Assembly: GCA_023443925.1 (NCBI GenBank)
Contig: JAEZSL010000224.1
Coordinates: 1 to 8,887, forward strand
Reading direction: 5' to 3'
Length of the DNA stretch: 8,887 nucleotides
Source: Bacillota bacterium
Lineage (GTDB): Bacteria > Bacillota_A > Clostridia > Lachnospirales > Lachnospiraceae
Part shown: positions 1-8,443 of the stretch, in pieces
Position numbering within the stretch: the stretch's first letter is position 1
How the letters are laid out: each line of letters opens with the position of its first letter
Notes under the pieces: generated by a model
The model's input: the letters and a program-made list of their open reading frames with translations, nothing else
What the model was told of the DNA's origin: nothing
Databases searched by the model: none
Position numbers and translations under genes: made by a program

Positions 1-272
1 GTATCACCACTAATTATAGCAGCGTTAATGGAATCAATACCCATCAGACCTGATATCGAGGTCTTTGTAAAATGCATCTTATAATATTCATTTAAATCCA
101 GATTAAATTTAATGGATAGTTGATGTAGGATATGTATGGAGGGTTCAGAAATACCCTTTTCAATGCGGTAGATCTGTTTTGGAGTACAGATATTTTGAGC
201 GAGCTTATCCCTGGACATGCTATATTTTTTTCTTAGTTCCTGTAGTAAAAAACCAAAATGTTCATATTCCAT
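1..272 (-). CDS. RRNPP/Rgg-like HTH-TPR regulator, paralogue 1 (3' part outside window)
   Basis: The first 90 codons of a minus-strand gene whose end lies beyond the left edge. The reading frame is open throughout. The protein begins MEYEHFGFLLQELRKKYSMS and carries an XRE-type helix-turn-helix at about residues 8-62 with the block CTPKQIYRIEKG, then the linker LSIKFNLDLNEYYKMHFT found in all the neighbouring paralogues. The ATG at 272 is chosen because AAAGG lies 8 nt upstream. An in-frame GTG three codons earlier is part of that ribosome binding site and is an unlikely start. By family analogy it is a cytoplasmic DNA-binding regulator whose missing C-terminal helical repeats would bind a short peptide. 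Whether this copy is intact cannot be seen. It lies 105 bp downstream of the next copy, with no terminator visible between them. Confidence 0.85.
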   Translation of the reverse strand, partial: MEYEHFGFLLQELRKKYSMSRDKLAQNICTPKQIYRIEKGISEPSIHILHQLSIKFNLDLNEYYKMHFTKTSISGLMGIDSINAAIISGD

Positions 273-288
273 AAGTATCACCTTTAGT

Positions 289-377: not shown

Positions 378-1316
378 TCATGTCAGTAATTTGTAAAAGT
401 CGGCTCTCATTAAGCTTTCTAATTCCGTTAATTCTGTTGTATTATTTGATATTTTATAAAGTGATAAAATATAGTTATAATATTCACGGGCTTCAACATA
501 TCTTTCTTCATGATATAAGATTTTTAACTTCATAAAAAAGAGGTCAGTAAGATGTCTTGAATTATACTCTTTTAAGGAATATGCGATGCCTTTTTCAATT
601 AAGATTAGAGCCTGTTCTATCTGTCCTTGGTCGTATAATTGGAAACCCATATTATATAATGCTACCAGATATGCTTTCTTCGAAAATTCTGAAATATGTA
701 AGAACGAGATAGAAGTATTTAGTACAGAAGCTTCTAATACAGCAAGCAGGCCCTTAAGAACTTTCATACCGTTATTATCATCATTCATAGCAAAGAAGTT
801 CTGACTTATACAATTCAATAGGGTAATCCCGACATTTGAATATATATTATCTGATATATTTTCTATAGAAAATGAAGGATATTCATTTAGTATACCTTTA
901 TAACAGTATTCCAGGGACATATTGTAATTATTATCCAACAAGGCGGAGCATAATGCTTTGCCATAATAAATGTGCTGAAGATTCTCGCCTTTCTTAAAAT
1001 CTTTATGGTTTTCGTAGTTCTCGATTAAAGATCTTAATAGGTTCATATCGCCACAAATTAGAGCTGCATTAATAGAATTAATTCCTATGAGACCTGATAT
1101 TGTGTTTGTCGTAAAATGCATTCTATAATATTCATTTAAATCCAGATTAATTTTTTTGGATAATTGATGTAATATATAAATGGAGGGTTCAGAAATACCC
1201 TTTTCAATTCGGTATATTTGTTTTGGGGTACAGATATTTTGAGCAAGCTTATCCCTGGACATATTATATTTTTTTCTTAATTCCTGAAGTAAGATACCAA
1301 AATGTTCATATTCCAT
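378..1316 (-). CDS. RRNPP/Rgg-like HTH-TPR regulator, paralogue 2
   Basis: A complete 312-aa copy of the array family. The N-terminal XRE helix-turn-helix (about residues 8-62, FGILLQELRKKYNMSRDKLA then CTPKQIYRIEKG) is followed by an all-helical region from about residue 75 to the end. That region has TPR-like A/B helix pairs, for example GKALCSALLDNNYNMSLEYC and ALYNMGFQLYDQGQIEQALI, and a last repeat near YVEAREYYNYILSLYK. There is no signal peptide or membrane segment, so it acts in the cytoplasm. By architecture it belongs with the Rgg/PlcR/ComR regulators, which bind imported oligopeptides and then switch transcription. The peptide and targets are unknown. The ATG at 1316 is preferred over the in-frame GTG at 1325 because the GTG lies inside the AAAGGTGA ribosome binding site. 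It has its own plausible promoter (1387-1415), so it may be transcribed separately from the broken copy upstream. Confidence 0.88.
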   Translation of the reverse strand: MEYEHFGILLQELRKKYNMSRDKLAQNICTPKQIYRIEKGISEPSIYILHQLSKKINLDLNEYYRMHFTTNTISGLIGINSINAALICGDMNLLRSLIENYENHKDFKKGENLQHIYYGKALCSALLDNNYNMSLEYCYKGILNEYPSFSIENISDNIYSNVGITLLNCISQNFFAMNDDNNGMKVLKGLLAVLEASVLNTSISFLHISEFSKKAYLVALYNMGFQLYDQGQIEQALILIEKGIAYSLKEYNSRHLTDLFFMKLKILYHEERYVEAREYYNYILSLYKISNNTTELTELESLMRADFYKLLT

Positions 1317-1386
1317 AATCGTCACCTTTAGTAGGATAAAAAATTAATAATAGCTGCTATGAAAATATAGGTCTTTTGCTTAGACT

Positions 1387-1466: not shown

Positions 1467-2401
1467 TTAGACATTGATTTCCGGGTAATCAGTCAAATTA
1501 TCTATGTCATCTCTAGTAATAGGATTATTGGTTAATTTTGTTAGCAAATAAGAATAGTTATAATATTCCCGTGCTTCCTTATAATTTTGTTTACTGTATA
1601 ATATTTTGAATTTCATATAAAGTAGACCAGGAAGATGCCTCATATTATATTCCTTTAAAGAATATGCGATACCTTTATCTACATAAATCTGGGTTTTTTT
1701 ATAATATCACCATTTTCAAATAAATGACAACTCATATTATATAATATCAATTGATATATTTTCTTCGAAAATTCAGAAGTTTGAAACAATGGAAGAGAGG
1801 AATTAATAACATAAGCCTCTAAAACAGTAAGAATCCCAGATAGTACTTTCATACCGTCATTATACTCACCCATAGCAAAAAGATTCTGGCTAATACAATT
1901 TAATAAAGTAATGCCTACATTTGAATACATGTACTGAGAAACTTTGTTAATATCAAAATCAGGGCATTCTACCTTAATACCTTTATAGCTATATTTCAGG
2001 GAAGTTATATAATCCTTATCTAACAAGGCAGAGCAAAGTGCTTTACTATAATATATATGCTGGAGGTTTACCCCTTTTTTAAAATCCGTTAAACCTTCAT
2101 ATTTACTAACAATAGATTTTAATAATTGATAATCGCCTCTCTCAATCGCCGAATTTATGTTATTAATACCTTCTAATCCAATAATAGTATTACTGGTAAA
2201 GTGCATTTTATAGTACTCATTTAAGTCCTGATTAAATTTAACAGAAAGTTGATGCAATATATAGATAGAAGGCTCCGAAAGCCCCTTTTCAATCCGGTAT
2301 ATCTGCTTTGGGGTACAGATATTTTGAGCAAGTTTATCCCTGGACATATTATATTTAGTTCTTAATTCTTGGAGTAAGATACCAAAATGTTCATATTCCA
2401 T
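1467..2401 (-). pseudogene. Frameshifted RRNPP/Rgg-like HTH-TPR regulator, paralogue 3
   Basis: This copy starts like its neighbours (MEYEHFGILLQELRTKYNMS, AAAGG 8 nt before the ATG at 2401) and keeps the helix-turn-helix and most of the helical region. In the starting frame it hits TAG at 1679-1681 after about 240 residues. The missing C-terminus is present in another frame: 1467 to about 1700 encodes TQIYVDKGIAYSLKEYN, a REYYNYSYLL segment, and a tail ending TDYPEINV, collinear with the gene at 2491-3429. The break lies at a run of seven A (minus strand; T at 1694-1700), where this copy carries two extra bases relative to the paralogue. It may be a true pseudogene, a one-base homopolymer sequencing error, or a gene read through by slippage. 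A product truncated here would keep DNA binding but lose the last TPR-like helices. Long stretches near 1756-1840 almost match 2785-2870, so duplication was recent. Confidence 0.8.
1694..1700 (-). other. A7 run at the frameshift (possible -1 slippery heptamer)
   Basis: On the coding strand the zero frame reads ATA AAA AAA CCC. This contains A AAA AAA, the X XXY YYZ form of a -1 slippery heptamer. A -1 shift here would continue as ACC CAG ATT TAT GTA GAT AAA, which is exactly the frame that restores the conserved C-terminus. No convincing downstream stimulatory hairpin was seen, so decay or a sequencing error remains the simpler explanation. Confidence 0.45.
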
Positions 2402-2490
2402 AATTGTCACCTTTAGTAAAATATTTAAAAGAATAATAATTGCGCCTCATAGCCGGGCCGGATTGTGTAAAATGACTGTAAATAGGAGGT

Positions 2491-3429
2491 TTAAGCAAAA
2501 ACCTCAGGGTAATCAGTTTTGTTTAGGTTATTTATGTCATTTAAGGTAGTAGCATTATTGGTTAATTTTGATAGCATAAAAGAATGGTTATAATATTCCC
2601 GTGCTTCCTTATAGTTTTGCTCACTGTATAGTATTTTAAACTTCATGTAAAGCAAAGCAGGAAGGTGTCTCATATTATATTCCTTTAAAGTATGAGCAAT
2701 ACCTTTATCTACATAAGTACGGGCGTTTAAAATATCACCTTTTTCAAATAAATGACAACTCACATTGTATAATATACCTTGGTATATTTTCTTCGAAAAT
2801 TCAGAAGTATGAAACAATGGAAGAGAGGAATTAATAACATAAGCCTCTAAAACAGTGAGAATCCCAGATAATACCTTCATACCGTCATCATACTTACCCA
2901 TAACAAAAAGATTTTGGCTAATACAATTTAATAAAGAAATGCCGATATTTGAGTATATATTATGATCAACTGTTTTTATATTAAAATCAGGACATTCTAT
3001 CTTAATACCTTTATAGCAATAATCAAGGGAAGTTATGTAATCATTATCCAATATGGCAGAACATAGTGCTTTGCTATAGTAAATATGCTGTAGATTTTCA
3101 CCTTTTTTAAAATCCTCTAATTTTTCATATTTATTAACCATAGATTTAATTAATAGAATATTTTCTTGTTCAATAGCCGAGTTGAGGGAATTAATACCTT
3201 CTAATCCCAATAGGGTATTACTGGTAAAGTGCATTTTATAATACTCATTTAAATCCAGATTAAATTTAATAGAAAGCTGATGCAATATATAGATAGAGGG
3301 TTCCGAAACACCTTTTTCAATCCGGTATATCTGCTTTGGAGTACAGATATTTAGAGCAAGCTTATCCCTCGACATATTATATTTTGTTCTTAACTCTTGA
3401 AGTAAAACACCAAAATGCTCATATTCCAT
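2491..3429 (-). CDS. RRNPP/Rgg-like HTH-TPR regulator, paralogue 4
   Basis: A complete 312-aa copy. The XRE helix-turn-helix lies at about residues 6-60 (FGVLLQELRTKYNMSRDKLA, CTPKQIYRIEKG), followed by TPR-like helical repeats to the end, including GKYDDGMKVLSGILTVLEAY and KGDILNARTYVDKGIAH. The ATG at 3429 has GAGGTG about 8 nt upstream. It begins only 24 bp after the stop of the gene at 3454-4386, with no terminator between, so the two are very probably cotranscribed. It is the closest relative of the frameshifted copy at 1467-2401 and serves as the reference for reconstructing it. Predicted role: cytoplasmic peptide-responsive DNA-binding regulator. Ligand and targets cannot be deduced. 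Confidence 0.88.
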   Translation of the reverse strand: MEYEHFGVLLQELRTKYNMSRDKLALNICTPKQIYRIEKGVSEPSIYILHQLSIKFNLDLNEYYKMHFTSNTLLGLEGINSLNSAIEQENILLIKSMVNKYEKLEDFKKGENLQHIYYSKALCSAILDNDYITSLDYCYKGIKIECPDFNIKTVDHNIYSNIGISLLNCISQNLFVMGKYDDGMKVLSGILTVLEAYVINSSLPLFHTSEFSKKIYQGILYNVSCHLFEKGDILNARTYVDKGIAHTLKEYNMRHLPALLYMKFKILYSEQNYKEAREYYNHSFMLSKLTNNATTLNDINNLNKTDYPEVFA

Positions 3430-3453: not shown

Positions 3454-4386
3454 CTATTCTTCAAATATTTCAGGATAATTTGAATTCTCCAATTCTGACA
3501 ACGCCGCTTCTTGATTAGTTAATTTGTATAGTGAGACGATATGGTTATAGTATTCTCTTGCTTCCGTATATTCCTGCTCACTATATAATATTCTAAATTT
3601 AAGAAGTAATAAGTTGGGAAGATATTCCAAGTTATATACTTTAACAGAAAAATCAATCCCTTTTTCCACATAAGTTAAAGCTTTTTTAGTTTCACCATGT
3701 TCAAATAAATGATTACCCAAATTGTGCAATGTTACCTGATATATTCTTTGAGAAAAAAGAGATGCCTTAAACATAGGATATGGAGAATTTACTACAAAAG
3801 TCTCTAATAATGTGAGTATTTCGCTAAGCACTTTCATACCATCATTATACTGTTCCAATGCAAAATAATTCTGACTGATACAATTTAAGAGTGAAATACC
3901 AATATTAGAATACATATTTTTAGATATTACATATATAGTGAACGAGGGACATTCTAAACGGAGACCTTTAATACAATAGTCTAAGGAAGCGTTGTAATCA
4001 TTATTCAACAAAGCGGAGCAAAGCGCTTTTCCATAGTATATTAACTGGAGATTTTCTCCCTTTTTAAAATCTTCCAGCTTTTCATATTTTAATACTAAAG
4101 AATTTAATAATGGTAAGTCTCCAATATGTATAGCATTACTTATAGATTTAGCTCCCTCTAAGCCTACCAAAGTATTACTGGTGAAATGCATCTTATAGTA
4201 TTCATTTAAATCCAGGTTAAACTTAATGGATAGCTGATGTAAAAGATAGATAGAAGGCTCTGATTCTCCCTTCTCAATTCGGTATATCTGCTTTGGAGTA
4301 CATATATTCTGAGCCAGCTTTTCTCTGGACATTTTATATTTTGTTCTTAGTTCTTGAAGTAAATAACCAAAATGTTCATATTCCAT
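3454..4386 (-). CDS. RRNPP/Rgg-like HTH-TPR regulator, paralogue 5
   Basis: A complete 310-aa copy starting MEYEHFGYLLQELRTKYKMS, with GAGG 8 nt before the ATG at 4386. An in-frame GTG at 4395 overlaps that site and is less likely. The helix-turn-helix (about residues 6-60) has the invariant CTPKQIYRIEKG. The C-terminal part is helical and TPR-like (QYNDGMKVLSEILTLLETFV, HGETKKALTYVEKGIDFS, YTEAREYYNHIVSLYK). It is the first gene of an apparent two-gene unit with the copy at 2491-3429. Its upstream spacer of 256 bp holds the 18-bp palindrome at 4453-4470. On the minus strand a TATAAT (4432-4427) lies 20 bp past that palindrome, so this operon may be controlled from it. Confidence 0.88.
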   Translation of the reverse strand: MEYEHFGYLLQELRTKYKMSREKLAQNICTPKQIYRIEKGESEPSIYLLHQLSIKFNLDLNEYYKMHFTSNTLVGLEGAKSISNAIHIGDLPLLNSLVLKYEKLEDFKKGENLQLIYYGKALCSALLNNDYNASLDYCIKGLRLECPSFTIYVISKNMYSNIGISLLNCISQNYFALEQYNDGMKVLSEILTLLETFVVNSPYPMFKASLFSQRIYQVTLHNLGNHLFEHGETKKALTYVEKGIDFSVKVYNLEYLPNLLLLKFRILYSEQEYTEAREYYNHIVSLYKLTNQEAALSELENSNYPEIFEE

Positions 4387-4452
4387 ATTAACCACCTCAT
4401 GAGAAGCTATTAGAATTCTAAGTGTTATTATAAATATTTATGTAACTTTCAT

Positions 4453-4470
4453 ATGGACATAAATGTCTAT
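4453..4470. promoter_or_regulatory. 18-bp palindromic box 2 (candidate RRNPP operator)
   Basis: ATGGACAT-AA-ATGTCTAT is an inverted repeat of 8-bp arms with one mismatch. It matches the box at 5617-5634 in arm start (ATGGAC), AA centre, length and the following TTATT. On the plus strand a TATAAT starts after exactly 22 bp (4493-4498), the same distance as at box 1. On the minus strand a TATAAT lies 20 bp away (4432-4427), so either or both directions could be controlled. It is inferred to be the binding site of one or more of the array regulators. Confidence 0.65.
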
Positions 4471-4492
4471 TTATTTTTGATGCAATTACAGA

Positions 4493-4498
4493 TATAAT
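4493..4498 (+). promoter_or_regulatory. Candidate plus-strand -10 element downstream of box 2
   Basis: TATAAT positioned 22 bp after box 2, with no good -35 hexamer, as expected for an activator-dependent promoter. A transcript would start near 4505 and run toward the 3' end of the convergent receptor gene at 4643-5596. The only small frame there (ATG 4548 to TAA 4616, 22 aa) lacks a good ribosome binding site and a hydrophobic segment. The target may therefore be a lost gene or an untranslated or antisense RNA. Confidence 0.4.
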
Positions 4499-4583
4499 AA
4501 AAATAAACATTTATTATATAATTTTTTACTTGAAGTATAAATATAATATGTTAGATTTAAATCAACAGATTTTGTACTTGGTT

Positions 4584-4597
4584 GGATTACGTAATCC
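4584..4597. repeat. Perfect 14-bp palindrome GGATTACGTAATCC
   Basis: GGATTAC directly followed by its complement GTAATCC, flanked by the looser pair ACTT (4577-4580) and AAGT (4599-4602). It lies in the 4387-4642 spacer, 46 bp beyond the stop codon of the receptor at 4643-5596. It has no U-tract in either direction, so it is not a standard terminator. It may be a protein-binding site. Confidence 0.5.
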
Positions 4598-4642
4598 TAA
4601 GTATAATGAAAGATAATTAATATTGTTACTAATTAAACAAAT

Positions 4643-5596
4643 TTACGGATTTTGTTCCTTAAATAGTTCAGGGTAATCTATATCTGCTGTATCTACTAAT
4701 TCTTCTAATAGGGTTGTTTTATTAGCTATTTTGGATAGATAAACAGCGCGGTTATAGTATTCCCTGGCCTCCTCATATTTTTTCTCACTATAAAGGATTT
4801 TAAATTTCATAAAAACCAGGTTGGGCAGATATCGTAAATTATATTCCTTTAATGAAAATTCGATTCCCAGTTCCAAATAATTTAGTGCCTTTTTAGTATC
4901 ACCATGTTCAAATAATCGAACTCCAAGGTTATATAATACTCCCTGGTATGTTTTCCTGGAAAATTGTGAGGATTTAAATAGTGGATAAGGGGAATTGATT
5001 GCATAAATTTCCAATATTGTCAAAAGTTCGGTAAGCACCTGCATACCCTTATTAAATTCCTCCATCGCAAAAAAATTTTGAGCTATGCAATTGAGTAGTG
5101 ATATGCCGACATTGGAATACATATTTTTAGAAATCTTATCTAAATCAAAAGCAGGATATTCCACATGAATACCTTTATAACAGTATTCAAGGGAGGTTTT
5201 ATAGTCATTATCTAATAAAGCACAGCATAGTGCTTTGCCAAAGTATATGTGTTGAAGATTTTCACCTTTTTTAAAGTCTTCCAGATCTTCATATTTATTA
5301 ATTATTGATCTTAATAATGGCATATCACCACTTTCTATAGCGGAATTAATATTATTAATACCTTCCAGTCCTGTGATGGTAATATTGGTAAAATACATTT
5401 TAAAATAATCATTTAAATCCAAGTTAAACTTGATAGATAATTGATTTATAAGGTATAAAGAAGGTTCATAGACCCCTTTCTCAATTCGATAGATTTGTTT
5501 TGGTGTGCAGATACCCTGAGCCAGTTGTTCTCTGGTCATATTACGTGACAGTCTTAATTCTTGTAGAAACTCTCCAAAATGTTCATAATTCATCAT
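4643..5596 (-). CDS. RRNPP/Rgg-like HTH-TPR regulator, receptor next to the propeptide gene
   Basis: A complete 317-aa protein, the most divergent member of the array in its helix-turn-helix (FGEFLQELRLSRNMTREQLA, then the shared CTPKQIYRIEKG, about residues 7-62). The rest is TPR-like: KALCCALLDNDYKTSLEYCY, EFNKGMQVLTELLTILEIYA, HGDTKKALNYLELGIEFSLK and YEEAREYYNRAVYLSK. There are no export or membrane signals. The ATG at 5596 follows AGG at 9 nt; the next codon is also ATG. It is divergent from the 51-aa propeptide gene at 5696, with 99 bp between the start codons, which is the standard arrangement of a receptor with its cognate peptide. Box 1 (5617-5634) ends 20 bp before its start codon. 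Binding there could block its transcription while activating the peptide gene. The cognate pairing is an inference from position and architecture. Confidence 0.9.
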   Translation of the reverse strand: MMNYEHFGEFLQELRLSRNMTREQLAQGICTPKQIYRIEKGVYEPSLYLINQLSIKFNLDLNDYFKMYFTNITITGLEGINNINSAIESGDMPLLRSIINKYEDLEDFKKGENLQHIYFGKALCCALLDNDYKTSLEYCYKGIHVEYPAFDLDKISKNMYSNVGISLLNCIAQNFFAMEEFNKGMQVLTELLTILEIYAINSPYPLFKSSQFSRKTYQGVLYNLGVRLFEHGDTKKALNYLELGIEFSLKEYNLRYLPNLVFMKFKILYSEKKYEEAREYYNRAVYLSKIANKTTLLEELVDTADIDYPELFKEQNP

Positions 5597-5616
5597 AGGT
5601 AATCACCTGACTTTTG

Positions 5617-5634
5617 ATGGACGCAAGCGTCCAT
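5617..5634. promoter_or_regulatory. 18-bp palindromic box 1 (candidate RRNPP operator)
   Basis: ATGGACGC-AA-GCGTCCAT is a perfect inverted repeat with 8-bp arms, in the divergent spacer between the receptor (start 5596) and the propeptide gene (start 5696). Its centre is about 43 bp upstream of the predicted start of the propeptide transcript, directly ahead of the poor -35 region. That is a typical activator position. For the receptor gene it lies close to the predicted start of transcription, which suggests negative autoregulation. The similar box at 4453-4470 supports it being a real site. Confidence 0.75.
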
Positions 5635-5640
5635 TTATTC

Positions 5641-5670
5641 GTTATAAAAATAATGTTATAATTTAGTCAT
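5641..5670 (-). promoter_or_regulatory. Weak candidate promoter for the receptor at 4643-5596
   Basis: On the minus strand ATGACT (5670-5665) and TATAAC (5646-5641) are 18 bp apart. Transcription would begin near 5634, placing box 1 at the very start of the transcript. The -35 matches only four of six consensus bases, so this is tentative. Confidence 0.35.
5654..5662 (+). promoter_or_regulatory. Extended -10 promoter of the propeptide gene
   Basis: TGTTATAAT is an extended -10 (TGnTATAAT) with no recognisable -35: the expected hexamer at 5634-5639 reads TTTATT. The transcript would begin near 5669, about 27 nt before the TTG start. A strong -10 with a poor -35 and an adjacent palindrome points to activator-dependent expression. 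Confidence 0.6.
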
Positions 5671-5695
5671 AAATTTGAAAGAAGAGGATAAATAA

Positions 5696-5851
5696 TTGAG
5701 AAAATTTATTACTAAATTTCGTTACTGGCTTGCTTTACTTGTTATCGTCTTAACAATTTCAAATGTAACTGTATCAACTAACCAGATCAATCCATCCGAT
5801 AACATGCAAGCTTTAGGTACTGGTGCCGTATGGGGGTTTGAAACTAATTAA
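5696..5851 (+). CDS. Putative exported signalling propeptide (51 aa, TTG start)
   Basis: A 51-codon gene starting at TTG 5696. GAAGAGG (5681-5687) lies 8 nt upstream, and an in-frame TAA immediately precedes the TTG, so no earlier start exists. The product begins MRKFITKFRYWLALLVIVLT: a basic stretch (residues 1-9), a hydrophobic core (about 10-21), then a polar tail (SNVTVSTNQINPSDNMQ) and the C-terminus ALGTGAVWGFETN. This is the plan of Sec-exported pheromone precursors such as PapR and NprX, and broadly of SHP and ComS, in which a C-terminal fragment is the signal. It is divergent from a receptor gene of the RRNPP type and lies behind box 1 and an extended -10. I infer that a C-terminal fragment is released outside, re-imported by an oligopeptide permease and bound by one or more array regulators. 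The mature peptide is not known. Alternatives are a small membrane or other exported peptide. Confidence 0.75.
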   Translation: MRKFITKFRYWLALLVIVLTISNVTVSTNQINPSDNMQALGTGAVWGFETN

Positions 5852-5940: not shown

Positions 5941-6129
5941 AATCTATAAATAAGAGGTGAGGTGAAGAAAGAGAAATTATTATTATTGCTCACTTAGAAG
6001 TATTCAATCTAATGGCAAGTACATACTGAAATGCTCTTAAACTTTAATTTAGGGTAAATTCATTTAAAAATTTTATTAAAACTTTGAGGGGAGTTAACAT
6101 AAAATTTTTACCATAAGTATTAAATCATA

Positions 6130-6202
6130 CTAGCAAACCTGTCGAAAGGCAGTGACGCAAAACTAAAGGGCCTAATCAATCAGGTATGGCAGCCAGTTGC
6201 AA
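6130..6202 (+). promoter_or_regulatory. Cyclic di-GMP-I (GEMM) riboswitch
   Basis: The segment carries the hallmark order of the class I c-di-GMP aptamer: AGCAAACC, a CTGTC-GAAA-GGCAG hairpin with a GNRA tetraloop (6144-6147), GACGCAAA, GGGCCTAA as tetraloop-receptor side, then TATGGCAGCC and GTTGC closing onto GCAA (6133-6136 with 6197-6200). Flanking CATAC (6126-6130) and GTATG (6213-6217) could extend the closing helix. It lies 84 nt before the start codon of a PAS-GGDEF-EAL protein, so the sensed molecule is the substrate of the regulated enzyme. No U-tailed terminator is visible between aptamer and start codon. The output may be at translation, or of a type I cannot read by eye. Confidence 0.9.
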
Positions 6203-6285
6203 TATGGTTAATGTATGCTGATTTGAATTAAAACGACAAAAGCAGAGGTATTTTTAAGCTTGTGTCTGTATAAAGTGAGGTTTTT

Positions 6286-8001
6286 ATGGACGAAATAAAA
6301 GGTTGTTCAGGATTAACAGTGGGCGATAATGAAACGTTAAGTAAATTCAAGGATCGTTACAGTATAGTAATTGAACAGACCAATGTATACATTTTTGATC
6401 TGAATCTGATCGATCACGAGATTTACGTATCGGATAATTTCCTTGAACATACCGGAACCGAAAACCGAAAGCAGGCCATTTTAAAGCAGATGATATCATC
6501 AAAAGATGTTCATCCGGATGATTTGGACAAGTTTAAGAGCTATGTAAGACTTAGCAGTTCAGGTATGGTAATGGATTCTATCACCTATCGGCGGAAGAAT
6601 CCGGACGGCAGCTATATCTGGATAAGAAGTAACAAAAAGAATATTTTTAATGAGTATGGTAAATTAATCCGTGTCTTAGGGACGGCACAGGATGTCAGCG
6701 CAGAGATGGAACTGTACGAACGGATAAAAAACAGGGACGACAGGGATATCTTAACAGATATCCCTAATCTATCCGCATTTACCATCAAAGCGCAAGCAAC
6801 AATCAGGGAAAACAGGGATAAAAATTATGCGATAGTTGTTTTTGATATTGATAAGTTTCGGATCATTAATGATTTATATGGTTCGAAAGAAGGTGACGGA
6901 GTATTAAGATATATTGGTTATATACTAAAGACCAAGATCAGTGAATCCGGCTTATGCTGCAGAATGTACGCCGATAATTTTGCAATTCTGACGGAGTATG
7001 AAAGTGATTCGGACTTTAGTAAGATAACGGATTTATTAAGGGAAGCAATAAAGCAATATCCAGTCAATCTTGGAATCATGCTGTCCTTTGGGGTATGCAA
7101 AGCCGATGGAGAATCGGATATTATTACCCTATGCGACCATGCGGGATTGGCGAAAAAGACGATAAAAGGCAATGTCTTAAAGTTGGTAGCCTTTTACGAC
7201 GAAGCCCTCAGGAAGCAGGGCATTGAAGATAAGGATATTGAGAATGAGATGAATCATGCTCTGGAGAATGGGGAGTTTGAAATGTATCTGCAGCCTAAGG
7301 TCTCGATTGCCACAACGGAGGTGGTAGGAGCGGAGGCCTTGGTTCGATGGGTTCATCCCATCAAAGGGATCATTTTACCGGCGCAGTTCATTCCATTATT
7401 TGAAAAAAACGGTTTCATTGTAAAGCTGGATTATTACATCTGGGAGAAAGCTTTTGCAACATTAAGAAAGTGGATGGATGAAGGCTTTACACCGATTCCG
7501 ATATCGGTTAACGTATCACGGCTTCATCTACATAATGCTGGTATTGTGGGGCATTTTATCAAGCTGGCAGATAAATATAAGATACCAAGAAATTTTATAG
7601 AGCTGGAGCTTACGGAAACCATATTTTTAAGTAATCTGAATGAAGTGACTCAATTGGTATGTTCTTTAAAATCAGAAGGATTTGTTCTGGCCATGGATGA
7701 CTTCGGGTCAGGTTATTCCTCATTAAATATGTTAAAAGATGTGCCGATTGACAGCATTAAAATTGACCGGGGATTTTTCAGCGAGATCGTTGAAACAGAC
7801 AGAGGCAATACGGTTATCCAGTATACTATAGCAATGGCGAAAAAGCTGAATATTGACGTTATTGCCGAAGGAGTCGAGAATTTTGTACAGGCTGAATTTC
7901 TATATCGGGCCGGGTGTGAAACTGCACAGGGACTGTTTTATTCCGAACCGTTACCGGTCAGAAAGTTTGAGCAATATACTTTTGGTTATTATAATAAATA
8001 A
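6286..8001 (+). CDS. PAS-GGDEF(degenerate)-EAL protein, predicted c-di-GMP phosphodiesterase
   Basis: A 571-aa cytoplasmic protein. AGTGAGG lies 5 nt before the ATG. An N-terminal PAS domain (about residues 25-140, with RRKNPDGSYIWIRSNKKNI and LGTAQDVSAE) is followed by a GGDEF fold (about 155-305; FDIDKFRIINDLYG at 186-199). Its signature reads YADNF at 228-232 instead of GGDEF, so cyclase activity is not expected, though it may still bind nucleotide. The EAL domain (about 320-565) is complete: E350 of EALVRW, N409, E441, D471-D472 of DDFGSGYSSL, K492, E528, E531 and Q548, with spacing like known active enzymes. It should hydrolyse c-di-GMP to pGpG, with activity modulated by the PAS domain. 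The ligand is unknown. There are no membrane segments. It is a single-gene unit: riboswitch leader before it, intrinsic terminator after. The riboswitch implies feedback from c-di-GMP level to its own degradation. Confidence 0.93.
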   Translation: MDEIKGCSGLTVGDNETLSKFKDRYSIVIEQTNVYIFDLNLIDHEIYVSDNFLEHTGTENRKQAILKQMISSKDVHPDDLDKFKSYVRLSSSGMVMDSITYRRKNPDGSYIWIRSNKKNIFNEYGKLIRVLGTAQDVSAEMELYERIKNRDDRDILTDIPNLSAFTIKAQATIRENRDKNYAIVVFDIDKFRIINDLYGSKEGDGVLRYIGYILKTKISESGLCCRMYADNFAILTEYESDSDFSKITDLLREAIKQYPVNLGIMLSFGVCKADGESDIITLCDHAGLAKKTIKGNVLKLVAFYDEALRKQGIEDKDIENEMNHALENGEFEMYLQPKVSIATTEVVGAEALVRWVHPIKGIILPAQFIPLFEKNGFIVKLDYYIWEKAFATLRKWMDEGFTPIPISVNVSRLHLHNAGIVGHFIKLADKYKIPRNFIELELTETIFLSNLNEVTQLVCSLKSEGFVLAMDDFGSGYSSLNMLKDVPIDSIKIDRGFFSEIVETDRGNTVIQYTIAMAKKLNIDVIAEGVENFVQAEFLYRAGCETAQGLFYSEPLPVRKFEQYTFGYYNK

Positions 8002-8122: not shown

Positions 8123-8443
8123 ATGGATAACTACAGACGTCCAATGTATACCCGTTATAACAGGAATATGGGGTCTTATCAGAATCCTCAGAGCGGCTGC
8201 GGTGTAACTCCGGTTATGGAAGCAGGAAGAGATGCCCGCTGCAATAAAGATGATCGCTGTGACAAAGATGATTTTGAATGTGTTGATAAATTACCATTAG
8301 CTATGGCTTATGTACCGTTCCAGAAATGGAGAAAGGTGCTGGATGCTTCTGCCGGTCTTGCTGCCGGAACAATATTTGAAGAATTATACAAGCCCTGGTA
8401 TGGTGATAAAAATATGTGCGGAATGAGAGGTGATAGGCCATGA
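8123..8443 (+). CDS. cotJA: Spore coat protein CotJA
   Basis: A 106-aa protein with AAAGGAG 9 nt before the ATG. The C-terminal half carries the CotJA core: LAMAYVPFQKWRKVL (about residues 59-73) and GTIFEELYKPWYG (82-94). The N-terminal half is a variable Tyr/Arg/Asn-rich stretch and a short charged cysteine segment, CNKDDRCDKDDFEC (40-53), which could cross-link or bind metal (speculative). CotJA is a small component of the inner spore coat, made in the mother cell together with CotJB and CotJC. It is the first gene of the cluster: its stop overlaps the start of cotJB by 4 bp (ATGA), indicating translational coupling. Confidence 0.9.
   Translation: MDNYRRPMYTRYNRNMGSYQNPQSGCGVTPVMEAGRDARCNKDDRCDKDDFECVDKLPLAMAYVPFQKWRKVLDASAGLAAGTIFEELYKPWYGDKNMCGMRGDRP

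Follow-up and report, generated by a model that had tools for sequence, protein, structure and literature searches.

Does a 51-codon open reading frame (ORF) with a TTG start codon, lying head to head with a gene for a helix-turn-helix (HTH) and tetratricopeptide-repeat (TPR) regulator, encode the signal to which that regulator responds? The question arises in an 8,887-nucleotide stretch of contig JAEZSL010000224.1 (assembly GCA_023443925.1), here called the window, from the Anaerocolumna group of Lachnospiraceae, where the original prediction had placed a cell-cell signalling pair. We consider it highly probable that the locus is a cytoplasmic-receptor quorum-sensing (pheromone) module of the Anaerocolumna group, resembling PlcR/PapR. 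The proposed pair is supported by the conserved pairing of the two genes, by a coding test and by the likeness of the receptor to PlcR, while secretion, cutting and binding of the peptide are presumed. The elements at the centre of the locus are as follows.

4643..5596, minus strand: head receptor, 317 amino acids, N-terminal HTH and TPR domain, PlcR-like by domain, sequence and structure comparison
5619..5632, no strand: predicted operator dyad GGACGCAAGCGTCC, 22 nucleotides (nt) upstream of the start codon of the receptor gene and directly adjoining the propeptide promoter's -35 region
5657..5662, plus strand: -10 hexamer TATAAT of the predicted propeptide promoter, 24 nt after the dyad
5681..5687, plus strand: ribosome-binding site region of the propeptide gene, GAAGAGG, judged from the sequence
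5696..5851, plus strand: predicted propeptide gene, 51 codons, TTG start, with leader MRKFITKFRYWLALLVIVLTISNVT, a variable middle and C-terminal WGFETN of conserved pattern

Coding potential of the small gene and identity of the adjacent receptor

The divergent 51-codon frame that had been described is real: 99 bp separate its start codon from that of the head receptor, a TAA codon immediately precedes the TTG, AGAGG lies 8 nt upstream and translation gives MRKFITKFRYWLALLVIVLTISNVTVSTNQINPSDNMQALGTGAVWGFETN. For comparison we used 15 Anaerocolumna-group genomes (referred to by G numbers), with receptor presence called at E ≤ 1e-40. The receptor was present in nine of these genomes and the peptide in eight of the nine, each time divergent and approximately 100 bp away, so that, counting the window, the small frame proved to be conserved beside orthologous receptors as had been anticipated and as is characteristic of RRNPP systems. 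A profile built from five peptides gave eight matches in the 15 genomes (E ≤ 5.1e-12), the next best match having an E of 0.03, and the six receptor-less genomes contained no peptide match better than E 0.048. Because all eight profile matches sit approximately 100 bp divergent from a receptor, the pairing is not due to chance. Searching 5.8 billion proteins with nine peptide sequences identified 20 homologs of 47-54 amino acids, six of which (P0123, P0125, P0126, P0127, P0133 and P0134) had been labelled 'hypothetical protein' by a source; genes of this kind, said in the original prediction to be usually missed by annotation, are therefore not always missed.

The window and G001 are also alike in their flanking non-coding DNA, which is what a chance ORF conserved merely through its promoter-region DNA would leave. 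This explanation is extremely improbable and is refuted unless the alignment is wrong. In a column-shuffle coding test of six sequences, which is independent of the saturated synonymous divergence (dS), none of 1000 shuffles was as high in amino-acid similarity as the observed alignment (z 5.54), and for the tails alone none of 1000 reached the observed value (z 4.82). The nine DNA copies contain no internal stop and differ in length by whole codons only, three of them being just 26-28% identical to the window peptide, and the 20 homologs are found among predicted proteins. The start codon is not conserved, the nine copies having been assigned TTG (three), GTG (one) or ATG (five), and the frames of G001 and G002 have another in-frame start further upstream. 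The leader had a lower non-synonymous proportion (pN) than the tail in all ten pairs compared, and a lower pN/pS ratio in eight of them. We take the frame as coding, with clearer constraint on the leader than on the tail.

The anatomy of the peptide was examined in 24 rows, made up of the 20 database proteins and four locus copies with G001 counted twice. Each has a net charge of +2 to +5 followed by a strongly hydrophobic 12-residue stretch, a charge and hydropathy that would be compatible with Sec export, as judged by composition. The C-terminus follows the pattern W-x-[IFL]-E-[TS]-x, with a hydrophobic residue at -4 in 24/24 rows, Glu at -3 in 21/24, Thr or Ser at -2 in 20/24 and Trp at -6 in 16/24, and the stretch between leader and pattern is variable. 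This arrangement of basic-hydrophobic leader, variable middle and conserved C-terminus is the layout expected of a propeptide carrying a C-terminal signal. The basic N-terminus and single hydrophobic stretch would also fit a small membrane protein or toxin-like peptide that is merely regulated by the receptor and is not its signal, an explanation that we regard as very unlikely: the C-terminal hexamer lies outside the membrane stretch and has a conserved pattern when the middle has none, the gene is found only beside this receptor among the 15 genomes and the receptor groups by fold with the peptide-binding PlcR.

Placement of the regulator in the RRNPP family, as first proposed, was borne out by both sequence and fold, PlcR being the nearest solved relative of the head receptor on either count and matches to Rgg being weaker. 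The Pfam models HTH_3 (35.3 bits, cut-off 23) and TPR_2 (34.2 bits, cut-off 27) both scored above their cut-offs, giving an xre-type HTH followed by TPRs, and the AlphaFold model is all-helical with the overall fold of PlcR, at approximately 17% identity in the structural alignment. PlcR itself recognises a box with the motif TATGNAN4TNCATA. The window contains one match to this box, with one mismatch, at 8309 inside a coding gene, and at least one match occurred in 141 of 200 shuffles; since a PlcR box is thus not evident, the module is called PlcR-like rather than PlcR-PapR. A search for further receptors across the family, in which at most five candidates were scored per genome and which is hence not exhaustive, found them in 4 of 397 genomes, namely the already known G001 and G006 and two others with distant receptors (37% and 30% identity).

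Operator, promoter and predicted feedback

The original prediction had mentioned a box; the geometry of the promoter, the receptor paralogs and the likely targets go beyond it. The predicted promoter takes the form GGACN6GTCC, 24 nt, TATAAT, with ATTT directly after the dyad, which between receptor and peptide occurs either as the perfect GGACGCAAGCGTCC or as GGACATAAGTGTCC with one mismatched arm pair. At the -35 position stands TTTATT, a poor match to the consensus, and in line with this a scan for consensus sigma-70 promoters did not list the propeptide promoter. The combined motif has two zero-mismatch matches in the window (at 4455 and 5619) against 0.02 expected at ≤ 3 mismatches, and across the 15 genomes at ≤ 2 mismatches it has 24 matches, the reversed control giving 4. 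A spacer of 22 nt gave 4 matches, two of which were at the same sites, and its reversed control gave 13; as the 22-nt matches fall below their control, the 24-nt spacing is specific. At ≤ 1 mismatch the promoter was found in exactly the nine receptor-bearing genomes among the 15, and in 2 of 200 sampled Lachnospiraceae genomes, one being G001. A stricter scan for the exact dyad in 12 chosen genomes gave 12 matches in 8 of them, compared with 3 for the reversed pattern. Among 33 receptors, scored without a shuffled control, an upstream promoter copy reaching at least 17/19 was present at 10/10 head receptors and at 5/23 members of the receptor arrays described below.

The dyad was also flagged as terminator-like by a scan. 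A terminator was rejected given that the dyad sits between divergent start codons, and this reading is contradicted as well by the 24-nt spacing to the -10 hexamer being kept before unrelated genes.

A dyad placed next to a poor -35, with a good -10 behind it, is typical of activator sites, and the arrangement suggests positive feedback on the propeptide. In the proposed mechanism the small gene would give rise to a propeptide exported by means of its basic-hydrophobic leader, and cleavage would free the C-terminal six to eight residues, (AV)WGFETN, as the signal, to judge by which part of the peptide is conserved. After re-import the signal would bind in the TPR groove of the head receptor, as homology to PlcR suggests, and the loaded receptor would bind the GGACRYAARYGTCC dyad, adjoining the weak -35 of a promoter that has a good -10, and would activate transcription of the propeptide in a positive feedback predicted from this geometry.

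The sign of regulation is not fixed by position alone, and with the dyad also placed 22 nt in front of the receptor's start codon, binding could block the transcript of the receptor itself. The receptor might accordingly repress the peptide and target promoters, with the peptide relieving repression in a PrgX-like or mixed logic. We think this unlikely. Placing the -10 hexamer at -12 to -7 puts the centre of the dyad at approximately -43.5, abutting the non-consensus -35, which is the geometry of an activator, and repression would not need the 24-nt spacing that is kept before unrelated genes. We clearly favour activation over repression.

Receptor array and genes behind the promoter

The window contains at least six paralogous HTH-TPR receptor genes in tandem, all on the minus strand. 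In addition to the head receptor these and the associated second promoter copy are:

3454..4395, minus strand: array receptor 2, a paralog with 64% identity to the head receptor
2491..3429, minus strand: array receptor 3
1467..2410, minus strand: array receptor 4, in two frames (1679-2410 and 1467-1643) through a frameshift
378..1325, minus strand: array receptor 5
3..281, minus strand: array receptor 6, truncated by the window end
4455..4498, plus strand: second copy of operator, 24 nt and TATAAT, upstream of array receptor 2 and followed only by a 22-codon frame at approximately 4549-4617 that has no good ribosome-binding site

The frameshift in array receptor 4 lies near a T run at approximately 1690 and reflects either a pseudogene or a sequencing error.

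In a tree of 31 receptors the heads of the window, G001, G002 and G003 form one clade (support 99/96) and 19 array paralogs form its sister clade (99/95), with expansion within lineages; two other paralogs, from G008 and G014, are placed elsewhere. The HTH stretch CTPKQIYRIEKG, which in our reading contains the recognition helix, is the same in 10/10 heads and in 11/21 array members, the remaining 10 differing by one or two changes. The propeptide gene was seen at head receptors only and never at array paralogs. Second peptide genes serving the array receptors were considered and rejected: the dyad-promoter precedes some of these receptors, but the frames that follow are short (22 codons in the window and 14 in G001) and their conservation was not seen, and in G002 and G003 no frame behind the array promoters combines a ribosome-binding site with a start close to the -10. 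Because the downstream frames are short and not seen conserved, the array copies are read either as remnants of duplication or as sites used by the paralogs themselves. The array paralogs have their HTH sequence and, to some extent, their operator in common but no such peptide of their own, and probably serve as additional receptors for promoters of this class.

The second receptors of G008 (L081 3364), G014 (L082 10909) and G004 (L085 8339) have the variant dyad GGACATAACTGTCC, which in G008 is separated from the following TATAAT by 34 nt, a helical turn beyond the usual 24. Two transposase-like frames appear to interrupt the head receptor of G008 (L081 6775-9061), whose peptide and promoter are present. 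Between two receptor arrays of G001 (L078 6202-19138) lie two similar 500-amino-acid proteins with short variable neighbours which, judged by eye, resemble a polymorphic secreted-protein and immunity locus.

By position, the 24 promoter matches fall at nine head receptors, at four array receptors, at one site beside an array and at ten sites elsewhere. An antimicrobial-peptide-type cluster lies behind the promoter in three of the nine receptor genomes, and in these relatives the same promoter code may control a radical S-adenosylmethionine (radical-SAM) operon for a ribosomally synthesized and post-translationally modified peptide (RiPP), a lasso-like cluster and a bacteriocin-like operon; the matches are observed and the regulation is predicted. 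In G001, 4.5 kb from the array, the promoter is followed by two Cys-rich precursor-like frames, a radical-SAM/SPASM enzyme that scores above the Pfam cut-off and whose best NCBIfam relative, below cut-off, is PapB, and an ABC exporter. In G006 it occupies the gap between a receptor of an array and an operon in divergent orientation, which comprises a thioredoxin-like gene, one whose product matches TIGR04450 'putative immunity/bacteriocin fusion' (57.1 against a cut-off of 27), and genes for an ABC transporter and an S41 peptidase. The G007 copy leads into a lasso-like cluster made up of a class-V aminotransferase, PqqD, a B2-like transglutaminase fragment and an asparagine-synthase-type cyclase, with the Pfam matches to PqqD and Asn_synthase above cut-off and that to B2 slightly below, and with a precursor-like frame that presumably bears a lasso leader motif.

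We counted as noise or undecided the matches in G005, at G006:3186300, at G007:1232643 and at G006:344415 (beside an array), those adjoining genes of unclear kind at G001:2339545, G014:4427388, G014:637185 and G014:639691, and one in G010 (C615) before a gene with only a weak match to PhpK-type radical-SAM proteins. A further site in G001 (L112 4546) has a perfect dyad spaced 24 nt from TATTTT before a GAF-domain gene and, by eye, a thiamine-diphosphate-enzyme-like gene; lying far from the receptor arrays, it is a possible metabolic target.

One propeptide gene might feed the whole lineage-specific array, whose receptors share their DNA-binding sequence and operator code and diverge in the ligand domain. 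The array would then act as a switchboard wiring the signal, or neighbours' variants of it, to different, exchangeable antimicrobial-peptide clusters, with receptors expanding together with the clusters that they control. We put this forward only tentatively and regard it as possible rather than probable.

Several results weigh against a pheromone module with such targets. In G007, the ninth receptor genome, the promoter is perfect and the peptide is absent, and G005, which has no receptor, contains a promoter-like site with two mismatches. According to the reversed control approximately 4 of the 24 promoter matches would be expected anyway, and of the matches at a distance from receptors most lie in front of genes whose kind is unclear. 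Every match of the G007 cluster to a lasso NCBIfam model is below the curated cut-off, as is the NCBIfam match of the RiPP maturase in G001, and within the window promoter copies occur only at the propeptide and at array receptor 2, with no antimicrobial cluster in view. Pfam matches of the receptor to RNPP_C (22.6 bits, E 8.1e-5) and ComR_TPR (22.3 bits, E 1.1e-4) are under the cut-off of 26.5. A comparison of non-synonymous (dN) and synonymous divergence, proposed with the original prediction as a check, gave a mixed picture over ten pairs (dN 0.16-0.53, dS 0.20-1.15, with dS saturated). The ratio was near neutral, at 0.8-1.0, in three pairs (window-G001 0.28/0.32, window-G002 0.38/0.39 and G004-G008 0.16/0.20) and lower in the others, including window-G003 (0.25/0.70) and G001-G003 (0.37/1.15). 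Being saturated and mixed, dN/dS was set aside as a decisive test, with the column-shuffle test as backup, and that test strongly favours coding.

Relation to known systems and neighbouring genes

The kind of system is already known, the locus being an RRNPP-like module, and its lineage, its operator code and its tandem receptor array with a single signal appear to be new. PlcR-PapR of the Bacillus cereus group likewise combines an HTH and TPR receptor with an adjacent small propeptide whose C-terminal signal contains a hydrophobic-Glu pair (PapR7 is ADLPFEF, PMC6568020; here ..WGFETN). Unlike that system the operator here is GGACN6GTCC, the genes are divergent and the receptor is multiplied into a tandem array.

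The product of the cluster controlled by TprA-PhrA, a PlcR-type system of Streptococcus, is reportedly a lantibiotic. Propeptides of the PapR/TprA-like type are approximately 45 amino acids long with a basic N-terminus and hydrophobic leader, one of them starting MRKF (PMC12445099), and are similar to those described here as compared by layout only. A TprA-PhrA-type system controls an antimicrobial cluster (Hoover et al. 2015, as cited in PMC10075063) and streptococcal Rgg-SHP quorum sensing switches on radical-SAM RiPP operons (PMC12445099), so that such modules can drive antimicrobial clusters. In contrast to TprA-PhrA the link here is made by a common promoter that recurs at distinct loci of different genomes, paralog arrays are present, and in contrast to Rgg-SHP the propeptides are of 47-54 amino acids with a PapR-like layout and are not short SHPs. 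Within the Clostridia, Qsr/Qsp and QssR/QssP of solventogenic Clostridium (PMC7376267, PMC7206700) also pair an RRNPP receptor with a propeptide and are likened by description; there, several receptor-peptide systems are reported per genome, whereas here there is one peptide and an array.

The open-access literature searched yielded no RRNPP system from Lachnospiraceae, and the open-access papers combining Anaerocolumna and quorum sensing included, by title, none on such a system. Among the matches listed for RRNPP together with bacteriocin or lasso were general bacteriocin or lasso papers in which RRNPP was unmentioned. The main text of PMC10075063 does not include Lachnospiraceae among its 11 families with quorum-sensing-linked biosynthetic clusters, and neither Lachnospiraceae nor Anaerocolumna is mentioned in the main text of the RRNPP surveys PMC10075063, PMC9765709 and PMC12700828. 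If the proposed module is correct, its short promoter code would provide a handle for finding silent lasso, radical-SAM RiPP and bacteriocin clusters in the Anaerocolumna group and for inducing them with a synthetic six- to eight-residue peptide. A tandem array with one signal makes it testable how paralogous receptors divide that signal among targets.

Two features lie on the far side of the propeptide gene:

6122..6204, plus strand: c-di-GMP-I riboswitch (cyclic di-GMP), between the propeptide gene and the PAS-GGDEF-EAL gene
6286..8001: PAS-GGDEF-EAL gene

A c-di-GMP-I riboswitch is present beyond the peptide in eight of the nine relative sources (L001, L002, L003, L080, L081, L082, L084 and L085), the exception being G007 (L083), which likewise has no propeptide. 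In the relatives the gene after the riboswitch resembles the GGDEF-EAL gene of the window, as compared by first residues only, and in G010 it is a fragment. A coupling between c-di-GMP and peptide signalling is possible. Further along the window are the spore-coat genes cotJA and cotJB and, after them, a gene of the Mn-catalase family (cotJC-type).
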